Positions 47,054 through 49,759 are shown, counted from the first letter of the stretch. The stretch: 50,829 nucleotides of DNA from Bacteroidota bacterium (GCA_013298545.1 JAAFIA010000002.1:1-50829); one strand, 5' to 3'. Translations and numbers: made by a program. The notes: a model not told the origin generated them from the sequence alone.

Positions 47054-47061
47054 TATCTTTG
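47054..47061 (+). promoter_or_regulatory. -7 promoter element (TATCTTTG) before the epimerase-CBS gene
   Basis: TATCTTTG is a perfect TAnnTTTG and ends 10 bases before the ATG at 47072. It would drive the three-gene sugar-acid cassette; no clear -33 element. Confidence 0.5.
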
Positions 47062-47071
47062 CCTCTGATTT

Positions 47072-48088
47072 ATGAAAATCTCCGCTTCCATTTATTCAAG
47101 CCCCGATCGAAGTTTAGCAGCTATTGTTGCTGATTTGGATGCGCATGGTATCGAGTATTTTCATGTCGATTGCAACGACGATCCGAAGGTGTTTGAAGAC
47201 ATTGATTTCATTCGTCAGCATTCAAAAACTCCGATTGATTTACACATCATTACAGCCGATCCCGAAAAGTACTTTTCGCTTCTGGCACAACATCCGCCCG
47301 ATTATGTAACGTTTCAATACGAAGACGTTGCCGACAAATCGGTGCTCAAACGCATTCCGAAAAATGTGGCGCGGCGTTTGGGCTTTGCCATTACTGCGGT
47401 TTCCGATCCGGCAGTGTTTGAGGAGTACGCCGATGTGTTTGATTTTGTTTTGCTTATGGCAACCATTCCGGGCAAAAGTGGCGGTTCGTTTAACAAAGAT
47501 ATTTTCCGAAAAATCAGACAAGTAAAAAAGCGGTGGCCCGAAAAACGGGTGCATGTTGACGGTGGCGTAAACGGCGAAGTCTCGTTTATTCTGCGCAACA
47601 TGGGCGTTTATGCTTCGGTCTCTGGCTCGTATTTGTTTAAAGCTGCAAGCATTGGTCTGGCATTGCTCAACCTGAAATCGAACGAACATGAATCGCATTT
47701 TCAAGTGCGCGATTTTATGTTGGAGGTAAATGAAATTCCGACCTTGCTTCCGCAAATGCGTTCGTTCGAAAATATCTTGCGCAGCATTGAAGTGGCGGGT
47801 TTGGGCTTTACCATTTTGGTGGACGAAAAAAATACGCTTCAAGGAATCATTAGCAACGCAGATGTGCGCAAAGGTTTGCTAAAAAATATTGATACTATCG
47901 AATCGATTACGGCAAACGATCTGACCAATTACCATCCGGTAACGGTCAACGAAAATGCGAGTGTACAAGATTTGTTGCGTTTAATTAAATCCAAACAATT
48001 TCCGATTTCTTATTTGCCTGTTGTCAACGACCAAAACGCGGTTACAGGCGCACTTACATTCTTCAACCTGATTAAAGGCGAGGCGTAA
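47072..48088 (+). CDS. Ribulose-phosphate 3-epimerase-like barrel fused to a CBS-domain pair
   Basis: The 338-residue protein has a TIM barrel (about 1-205) like pentulose-phosphate 3-epimerase: ISASIYS at the start, metal-site residues His31 and Asp33 (FHVDCND), His58 (IDLHII), the phosphate loop MATIPGKSGGSF and Asp163 in VHVDGGV. The loops differ from housekeeping Rpe: the usual DVMDG reads DCNDD and ITVHVE reads VTFQYE. Residues 210-338 form two CBS motifs (GIISNADVRKG, PVTVNENASVQDLL, YLPVVNDQNAVTGAL) like those of KdsD arabinose-5-phosphate isomerase. A DAHP-synthase-like gene follows 26 bases on. It probably epimerises or isomerises a sugar phosphate feeding that enzyme. Confidence 0.82.
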   Translation: MKISASIYSSPDRSLAAIVADLDAHGIEYFHVDCNDDPKVFEDIDFIRQHSKTPIDLHIITADPEKYFSLLAQHPPDYVTFQYEDVADKSVLKRIPKNVARRLGFAITAVSDPAVFEEYADVFDFVLLMATIPGKSGGSFNKDIFRKIRQVKKRWPEKRVHVDGGVNGEVSFILRNMGVYASVSGSYLFKAASIGLALLNLKSNEHESHFQVRDFMLEVNEIPTLLPQMRSFENILRSIEVAGLGFTILVDEKNTLQGIISNADVRKGLLKNIDTIESITANDLTNYHPVTVNENASVQDLLRLIKSKQFPISYLPVVNDQNAVTGALTFFNLIKGEA

Positions 48089-48114
48089 CAAGCCTTGTAC
48101 AAAAAATAATAAGC

Positions 48115-49116
48115 ATGATTATAGAACTTAAATCGTCTGTTTCCGAAGCACGTGCGCAGGAACTTGCACAACAAGCCAAAGCATTTTGTATTCATTATGA
48201 TGGTCGCTGGACACTCATCACATCGTCGTCGCTGAAAGCACTCGATCCTTCGTTTGAAAGCGAAACCGAGCGTTTTACGGTGCTTGCCGATGATATTCAA
48301 TTGGCTTCGCGGGTGTGGAAAAAAGAAACGCGCACCATTACGCTTCCAAACGGAATTGCCTTGGGCGGTTCTACGGGCAATACGATTCTGATTGGCGGGC
48401 CTTGCTCGGTTGAGTCGGAAGAGCAGATTGAGCAGAGTGCGCAATTGATGGTGGAGCTTGGTGTTTCGACCTTGCGGGCGGGTGCATACAAGCCGCGCAC
48501 ATCGCCTTATACGTTTCAAGGAATGGGCTTAGATGGCTTGAAGTTGTTGGCGAAAATGCGCGAGAAATATGGCTTAAACGTGATTACGGAAGTGCGCGAC
48601 GCTACGCATATTGAAGAAATTATTGAGCATAGTGATATTATTCAGATTGGTGCAAAGTCGATGTACGATCATGGTATTTTGAAGCGTTGCGGAAAAACAC
48701 AGAAGCCGGTTTTATTGAAACGTGGCTTTGGAACAACCTTGCAAGAATTTGTGCAGTGCGCCGAGTTTATTTTGTCGGGTGGCAATCCGAATGTGATTTT
48801 GTGTGAGCGTGGTTTACGCACATTTGAAACCAAAACGCGTTTTACACTTGATTTGTGTGGTGCGGCGTGGATGAAGGAATACACCAACTTGCCGATTATT
48901 TTGGATCCAAGTCATGCCATTGGGTATGCGTATGGCGTTCCTGATTTGGCGCGGGCGTGTTGCGCGATGGGTGTAGATGGTTTGTTGATTGAAGTGCATC
49001 CAAATCCGAAAGTCGCGAAATCGGATGCGTCGCAACAATTAAATCACGATGAGTTTCGTGCGTTGGCGGGATCGCTGAAGGCGGTTGCGCAAGCGGTTGG
49101 AAAACGAATTGCTTAA
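48115..49116 (+). CDS. Type I-beta DAHP synthase-like aldolase (3-deoxy sugar-acid synthase)
   Basis: The 333-residue enzyme has a small N-terminal ferredoxin-like domain (about 1-75) and a KDO8P/DAHP synthase barrel. Conserved marks: GGPCSVES (metal Cys97), AGAYKPRTSPYTFQG, LKRGFGTTLQEF, ILCERGLRTFET, DPSHAIG (metal His), EVHPNP (metal Glu) and KSDASQQL (metal Asp). It condenses phosphoenolpyruvate with an aldose phosphate, normally erythrose-4-phosphate for the shikimate pathway. The stretch usually written QIGARNMQNF reads QIGAKSMYDH, and RNTLDLS reads RFTLDLC, so the aldehyde-side pocket is altered. Flanked by a sugar-phosphate epimerase-CBS and a KdsC-like phosphatase, it may instead make a KDO-like acid. 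Confidence 0.88.
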   Translation: MIIELKSSVSEARAQELAQQAKAFCIHYDGRWTLITSSSLKALDPSFESETERFTVLADDIQLASRVWKKETRTITLPNGIALGGSTGNTILIGGPCSVESEEQIEQSAQLMVELGVSTLRAGAYKPRTSPYTFQGMGLDGLKLLAKMREKYGLNVITEVRDATHIEEIIEHSDIIQIGAKSMYDHGILKRCGKTQKPVLLKRGFGTTLQEFVQCAEFILSGGNPNVILCERGLRTFETKTRFTLDLCGAAWMKEYTNLPIILDPSHAIGYAYGVPDLARACCAMGVDGLLIEVHPNPKVAKSDASQQLNHDEFRALAGSLKAVAQAVGKRIA

Positions 49117-49126
49117 TTTTTTTGCG

Positions 49127-49759
49127 ATGGACGTGTTTGCAGCAAATCTCTCTTTTTTGAAACAACAGTTTCCAGCAATTCATTTTCCAGCAGGAACTAG
49201 CGTGGCGGATTTAGTGTTTATTTCAGACGCAACAAAAATTCCGACAGATTTATTGTTGCGTGTAGATTTGGAAAAACGCGAAGCCATGCGCAGCAAAAAT
49301 ATTCGTTTGGTTGTTTTTGATATTGATGGGGTAATGACGGATGGCGGCATGTTTTATACGGAAAGTGGCGATGAGTTTAAAAAGTTTAATGCGAAAGATG
49401 GTTTAGCGGTGCGGGCATTGGCCAAACGTGGCATTGCAACAGGAATTATTTCGCATGGTTTCAATACAAATTTGATTCAGCGTCGCGCAGAGCGGTTGTT
49501 GATTGAGCGCGTGGCGGTTGATGCCGTTACACCCAAATTGGAAACATTAAATCGTTGGTGCGCAGAATTAAATATTACACCACAGGATGTGTGTTTTATT
49601 GGCGATGATTTGAACGATACCGACATCATTCAAGCGGTTGGATTTAGTGCTTGTCCGGCAGATGCTGTTGCTGGTGTAAAAGCCATGGTGCATGTTATTT
49701 TGCGGGCGGGTGGCGGCGCGGGTTGTGTGCGGGAGTTGGTCGATGTGTATTTGAGTTGA
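49127..49759 (+). CDS. KdsC-like HAD phosphatase with N-terminal extension
   Basis: The 210-residue protein (from ATG 49127, MDVFAANLS) has an extension of about 60 residues and then a HAD domain of the KdsC type. Motif I is VVFDIDGVMTDGG with the two catalytic Asp; FNAKDGLAVRALAKRG follows. Motif II reads IISHGFNT, where KdsC has ITGR, keeping a Ser/Thr; motif III Lys is in TPKLETL; motif IV is GDDLNDTDI. It ends GGGAGCVRELVD as in KdsC. KdsC removes phosphate from KDO-8-phosphate. Its start is 10 bases after the DAHP-synthase-like gene, completing an isomerase-synthase-phosphatase set. Substrate specificity cannot be read. Confidence 0.85.
   Translation: MDVFAANLSFLKQQFPAIHFPAGTSVADLVFISDATKIPTDLLLRVDLEKREAMRSKNIRLVVFDIDGVMTDGGMFYTESGDEFKKFNAKDGLAVRALAKRGIATGIISHGFNTNLIQRRAERLLIERVAVDAVTPKLETLNRWCAELNITPQDVCFIGDDLNDTDIIQAVGFSACPADAVAGVKAMVHVILRAGGGAGCVRELVDVYLS

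Follow-up and report, generated by a model that had tools for sequence, protein, structure and literature searches.

A three-gene cassette that probably replaces KdsD and KdsA at the front end of Kdo biosynthesis in Bacteroidota and some Gammaproteobacteria

The window, as we call the whole stretch of DNA analyzed here, comprises 50,829 nucleotides from a Bacteroidota bacterium (GCA_013298545.1 JAAFIA010000002.1:1-50829), and it carries a compact cassette of three genes that probably serves the synthesis of 3-deoxy-D-manno-octulosonate (Kdo). The first gene encodes a barrel of the ribulose-phosphate 3-epimerase (Rpe) type fused to a pair of CBS domains, the second a relative of 3-deoxy-D-arabino-heptulosonate 7-phosphate (DAHP) synthase, known as DAHPS, and the third a phosphatase of the haloacid dehalogenase (HAD) type. 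All three open reading frames lie on the plus strand with intergenic gaps of 26 and 10 bases, as had been described in an earlier reading made from the sequence alone (the sequence-only reading). The features are the following, with protein lengths in amino acids (aa):

47054..47061, plus strand: match to the Bacteroidota -7 consensus, TATCTTTG, 10 bases 5' of the ATG of gene 1
47072..48088, plus strand: gene 1, 338 aa, Rpe-type TIM barrel and CBS pair
47702..48073, plus strand: CBS pair inside gene 1, candidate feedback site
48115..49116, plus strand: gene 2, 333 aa, DAHPS type-Ibeta-like synthase with N-terminal domain
49127..49759, plus strand: gene 3, 210 aa from the ATG at 49127, KdsC-family HAD phosphatase

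An alternative TTG start of gene 3 at 49085 would make it overlap gene 2. The sequence-only reading had also pointed to a good -7 element, and its spacing to the ATG is indeed suitable; as evidence, however, the match is at chance level, since the window contains 48 copies of TAnnTTTG where 48.6 are expected.

Pfam profiles recognize both parts of gene 1, with PF00834 scoring 89.7 bits over residues 2-189 and CBS 44 bits, which places the barrel at residues 1 to about 203 and the CBS pair at residues of about 211-334. The AlphaFold2 model (pLDDT 90.8) has the RPE fold, the closest structure being RPE 2fli (Z 24.8, rmsd 2.4 over 202 residues). The metal residues His31, Asp33, His58 and Asp163, picked out in the sequence-only reading, are present and invariant in 26 whole-genome orthologs and also in a partly overlapping set of 39 rows that includes other genomes; the complete invariant set of the 26 orthologs is S6, H31, D33, H58, Q82, E84, M129, P133, G134, S136, G138, D163, G185 and S186. 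Gene 1 therefore shares with Rpe the fold, the metal ligands, the catalytic Asp pair and the phosphate-binding GS, and judged by these residues the barrel is unlikely to be inactive. It differs from Rpe in the CBS fusion, in the absence of the substrate-loop residues (DGxFVPN), in the change of H to Q and of PGFGGQ to PGxSGG, and in its coexistence with an ordinary Rpe in most cassette genomes, and it falls below the cut-off of the RPE equivalog TIGR01163 (78.8 against 212.6). The loss of the loop, together with other active-site residues that are altered yet invariant, fits a new substrate. The SIS domain is absent from gene 1, and in profile searches its similarity to KpsF/KdsD is confined to the CBS part (TIGR00393, 49 bits, E 6e-13). 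The nearest profiles of the CBS pair are solved CBS domains of arabinose-5-phosphate isomerases (4o9k 2e-12, 3fna 4e-9, 3k2v 2e-8; phmmer against 4o9k 5e-6), in agreement with the KdsD-like look first ascribed to it.

Gene 2 belongs to the KdsA/DAHPS superfamily, as proposed earlier (PF00793, 224 bits). It passes the cut-off of TIGR01361, the profile of DAHPS type Ibeta (314 against 267.75), whereas with the KdsA profile TIGR01362 it scores 120 (against 314) and does not qualify as KdsA. Its AlphaFold2 fold is that of Thermotoga maritima DAHPS 1rzm (Z 39.6 over 329 residues). With the type-Ibeta enzymes of T. maritima and Pyrococcus furiosus it has in common this fold, the N-terminal domain, which is retained, the metal ligands C97, H267, E293 and D304 and a KPRTS motif in place of the KdsA motif, motif and ligands being invariant among the orthologs. 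It is set apart from them by the loop IGAKSMYD, by DPSHAxGYAYG and other fixed columns, and by a Kdo rather than a shikimate context. Compared with the canonical DAHPS of the class, 34 alignment columns are fixed differently; several of these fall in IGAKSMYD, which appears from the alignment to correspond to the KdsA loop bearing F114 and R117, the residues mutated in solved Neisseria structures.

Gene 3 is a HAD protein by Pfam and passes the cut-off of the KdsC subfamily TIGR01670 (121.8 against 106.95), and its catalytic residues (Asp, Lys and GDDxND) are invariant, so that the label KdsC-like given to it at first sight is appropriate. Subfamily and catalytic residues are shared with KdsC and KDN-9-phosphate phosphatase (HAD IIIA). 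Unlike them, gene 3 has ISxGF instead of ITxR as motif II, carries an optional N-terminal extension of about 55 residues that is missing from many orthologs, and stays below the cut-offs of the KdsC equivalog NF007019 (120.6 against 208) and of the KDN-9-phosphate phosphatase profile (142 against 180). In about 14 cassette genomes it is the sole KdsC-family protein.

Conservation of the gene order was followed in two samples, namely 99 relatives from the window's class, with the window's own genome counted, and a named-genome collection in which the best 80 of 384 relatives were analyzed as loci. The Rpe-CBS fusion occurs in 26 of the 99 (23 full-length and 3 diverged). Gene 2 follows it 3' on the same strand in all 26, at about 100 bases or less in nearly every case (the gap reaches about 1.7 kb in G004), gene 3 comes next in line at 24 of these loci, and overlaps of 4 bases between cassette genes are frequent. 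Among the best 80 of the 384, gene 2 lies within about 400 bases of gene 1 in 75 and gene 3 is present too in 65, the loci short of the full order being largely contig ends. The arrangement is conserved far beyond chance, and the co-occurrence of the three neighbors, which the sequence-only reading had proposed to check, is kept across Bacteroidota and in some Gammaproteobacteria. Hosts include Crocinitomicaceae, Brumimicrobium, Saprospiraceae and Marivirga sericea DSM 4125 in the former, and in the latter Thiohalophilus thiocyanatoxydans DSM 16326 and several metagenome-assembled genomes (MAGs) of Chromatiales/Ectothiorhodospiraceae. The cassette is also carried by MAG records labelled Chryseobacterium, Thalassobius, Planktophila and Chitinophaga (L098, L107, L117, L134, L147), whose labels may be wrong. 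Within the window's class there is neither a fourth conserved gene nor a linked glycosyltransferase, and other genes are common to few loci at most.

The same 99 genomes were scored for the KdsA, WaaA, KdsB-type and KpsF/KdsD families. None of the 26 cassette genomes has KdsA or a KpsF/KdsD protein over the cut-off, and none of the 69 others that possess KdsA has a whole cassette (Fisher p 5e-20, uncorrected for kinship). These 69 consist of 65 genomes over the cut-off, two just under it and two (G024, G093) with partial matches on contigs, and the four genomes with neither cassette nor KdsA are two incomplete ones, one reduced genome of 0.5 Mb, and G060, which has no WaaA match either. A further 50 cassette genomes, of which 46 are new and four share contigs with the first set, include nine labelled Gammaproteobacteria (T. 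thiocyanatoxydans DSM 16326 among them), and KdsA again exceeds the cut-off in none, which brings the KdsA-free cassette genomes to at least 72 (26 + 46). On the WaaA tree, parsimony counts 10 changes between the cassette and the KdsA state, at least three of them on well supported branches, and G074 (cassette) and G031 (KdsA), which belong to one genus, are sisters; the exchange has therefore happened repeatedly.

The later steps of the pathway are retained. A KdsB-type gene is found in 25 of the 26 cassette genomes and WaaA in 23, with no match in G003, G030 and G047, the last being 69% complete. Residues of KdsB or WaaA that would point to a different sugar were searched for, and no column is fixed differently between cassette and KdsA genomes (20 against 20 for KdsB, 19 against 20 for WaaA); identity between the two sets equals identity within them. 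The lack of set-specific columns speaks for delivery of the same sugar, Kdo, or less probably of a close analog. Genomic position leads in the same direction. The gammaproteobacterial genome G106 has the order yrbG, gene 1, gene 2, gene 3, kdsB, kdsC, lptC, lptA, lptB, rpoN, and compared with the Escherichia coli order of yrbG, kdsD, kdsC, lptC, lptA, lptB, rpoN, the cassette occupies the kdsD slot. The cassette of L090, L092, L094 and L096 adjoins a divergently oriented kdsB-kdsC-lptC-lptA-lptB cluster, and in Thiohalophilus a heptosyltransferase gene and kdsB lie 3' of it.

The exclusion of KdsA, the retention of KdsB and WaaA and the position in the kds/lpt cluster point together to Kdo itself, and they support the proposal of the sequence-only reading that an epimerase-type enzyme here supplies a sugar-acid synthase in an alternative pathway, of which we infer the enzymology, that is the substrates, products, direction and regulator. 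It is very likely that the cassette replaces the KdsA step, with any product that KdsB and WaaA accept, and probable that it replaces KdsD and KdsA (and KdsC) as the front end of the pathway and leads to ordinary Kdo via D-arabinose 5-phosphate (A5P). Both routes, this one and the KdsD-KdsA-KdsC pathway of E. coli and most Gram-negatives, comprise a CBS-regulated supply of aldose phosphate, an aldolase acting with phosphoenolpyruvate (PEP) and a HAD phosphatase, upstream of the same KdsB and WaaA and, in Gammaproteobacteria, in the same genomic slot. They differ in that the first cassette step relies on an Rpe-type metal barrel rather than a SIS isomerase, that the second derives from DAHPS type Ibeta rather than KdsA, and that the three genes form one tight operon.

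The reactions may be pictured as follows. RPE deprotonates the carbon beside a metal-bound carbonyl and puts the proton back from the opposite face. The barrel of gene 1 would apply this enediolate chemistry, with its two-Asp machinery, shifted by one carbon, and would form A5P most likely from ribose 5-phosphate by 2-epimerization, or else from ribulose 5-phosphate, thereby standing in for the A5P isomerase KdsD. The CBS pair would regulate gene 1, probably by sensing CMP-Kdo. Gene 2, as a DAHPS-derived PEP aldolase, would condense A5P with PEP to Kdo-8-phosphate in place of KdsA, gene 3 would dephosphorylate this product in place of KdsC, and the free sugar would pass into the unchanged KdsB and WaaA steps. 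Only tentatively, and with less than even confidence, do we propose the specific assignment in which gene 1 encodes a metal-dependent, non-redox 2-epimerase of aldose phosphates (ribose 5-phosphate to A5P, or erythrose 4-phosphate to threose 4-phosphate) and gene 2 an independent, DAHPS-derived Kdo-8-phosphate synthase.

A second CBS fusion bears on the role of gene 1. Many KdsA genomes without KdsD encode a fructose-6-phosphate aldolase/transaldolase-type domain joined to a KpsF-like CBS pair (FSA-CBS). The full-length fusion is present in 17 KdsA genomes, 14 of which lack KpsF, and the Schiff-base Lys is kept in all nine examples checked from KdsA genomes. Its loci (L082:5822-9228, L069, L074, L075, L077, L078, L083, L272, L273) mostly adjoin kdsA and a KdsC-like HAD gene, in several cases kdsB too, the order at L082 being kdsA, FSA-CBS, a weak KdsC-like HAD gene and kdsB. 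E. coli FsaA forms A5P, and A5P only, from glycolaldehyde and glyceraldehyde 3-phosphate (PMC9947464). The fusion is apparently a second, independent substitute for A5P isomerase. Like gene 1 it places a KpsF-like CBS pair on a non-SIS barrel, with Kdo genes nearby and no KdsD, whereas its catalytic domain is a Schiff-base aldolase and its synthase an ordinary KdsA. A like CBS pair on an aldolase beside KdsA in KdsD-less genomes marks the A5P-supply step, and the occurrence of the KpsF-type pair with three different catalytic folds at one and the same step supports gene 1 as a regulated supply enzyme.

Several variants accompany these fusions. FSA-CBS relatives of family f3 (L087:5889-6890 and L268, in G059 and G095) lack the Schiff-base Lys while their CBS pair is intact, and in the same two genomes the cassette barrel carries a degenerate CBS region; the f3 protein is possibly a pseudoenzyme that serves as a separate regulator. 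Next to FSA-CBS, at L077:4463-5230 and L082:7708-8427, lie HAD proteins of about 240 aa that score far under the KdsC cut-off, in genomes (G016, G067, G087) in which no KdsC-family protein reaching E 1e-20 was found; the sequences suggest a further divergent phosphatase. KdsD-like proteins with a SIS domain but no CBS (about 205-212 aa) occur in G034, G043, G056 and G083, beside kdsA in G034 and G056.

A number of observations weigh against the replacement of KdsD and KdsA by an A5P-based cassette. Only 3 of the 34 distinctive columns of gene 2 are common to KdsA, so that no convergence on KdsA residues was found, and this together with the retained KPRTS motif makes a C4 aldose phosphate as substrate and a C7 product possible. 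A canonical KdsC is present alongside gene 3 in eight of the nine gammaproteobacterial genomes searched, and gene 3 may thus be redundant there or act on a different compound. Genes 2 and 3 stand without gene 1 at L228:7728-9444 in G034, a genome with KdsA and one of the SIS-only KdsD-like proteins, and this partial cassette may represent a transition state. For cassette organisms, neither a chemical record of Kdo nor an enzyme assay or sugar analysis was found in the literature. Many of the genomes are MAGs, although the exclusion pattern is also seen in nearly complete genomes and isolates.

The alternative that survives best, though an unlikely one, is that the cassette makes a C7 analog of Kdo, with erythrose 4-phosphate converted to threose 4-phosphate and this to 3-deoxy-D-lyxo-heptulosonate 7-phosphate, which gene 3 would dephosphorylate; KdsB and WaaA would then take a shorter sugar and the inner core would be chemically different. 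The DAHPS-type KPRTS motif and the distinct loop IGAKSMYD of gene 2 are in keeping with this, as is motif II of gene 3, which resembles neither that of KdsC nor that of KDN-9-phosphate phosphatase, and by our own reasoning a substrate like erythrose 4-phosphate would preserve the spacing of the reacting carbon from the phosphate found in ribulose-5-phosphate epimerases. A shorter sugar agrees poorly, however, with KdsB and WaaA proteins that have no cassette-specific columns, with sister lineages that swap repeatedly between cassette and KdsA, and with the canonical KdsC of Gammaproteobacteria, and KPRTS-bearing type-Ibeta DAHPS, such as that of P. furiosus, are reported to be ambiguous for A5P (the P. 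furiosus work is cited by title in PMC6435475).

There is little chance that gene 1 encodes a genuine ribulose-5-phosphate 3-epimerase while the cassette makes another 3-deoxy sugar acid (e.g., 3-deoxy-D-arabino-heptulosonate for a surface glycan), the loss of KdsA being coincidental or covered by another, unseen enzyme. G000, a 97% complete MAG, shows no PF00834 protein or ordinary ribulose-phosphate 3-epimerase apart from gene 1, and the barrel retains the RPE catalytic set; but most other cassette genomes have a separate ordinary Rpe, the equivalog cut-off is missed and the substrate-loop residues are lost, KdsA is excluded in 72 genomes, and the cassette has been seen to lie in the kds cluster. 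That gene 2 is an ordinary shikimate DAHP synthase in a fortuitous operon is scarcely credible despite its TIGR01361 score and KPRTS motif, given its 34 fixed differences, the absence of a shared aro neighbor from the loci, the Rpe-CBS gene that adjoins it everywhere but in G034, and a second canonical DAHPS in several cassette genomes, while a role as sole DAHP synthase is ruled out in G000 by a separate DAHPS-chorismate mutase fusion.

Kdo anchors the lipopolysaccharide (LPS) of the outer membrane, and almost no LPS-bearing bacterium can do without it; KdsA and KdsD are textbook enzymes and drug targets. We found no description of the Rpe-CBS fusion, the FSA-CBS fusion or a KdsA-free route to Kdo in the open-licence literature, and the enzyme swap, which is unexpected as chemistry, seems undescribed. 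A module that repeatedly takes their place would account for the presence of LPS genes without KdsA in a large group of Bacteroidota and in some Gammaproteobacteria, and it would give a testable role to genes misannotated as ribulose-phosphate 3-epimerase and DAHP synthase. The cassette also hints at a kind of reaction that the Rpe barrel is not known to catalyze. If the tentative 2-epimerase assignment is true, three unrelated CBS-regulated routes, FSA-CBS among them, would feed Kdo synthesis. A CBS pair that serves as a portable regulator for three different catalytic folds is of general interest.

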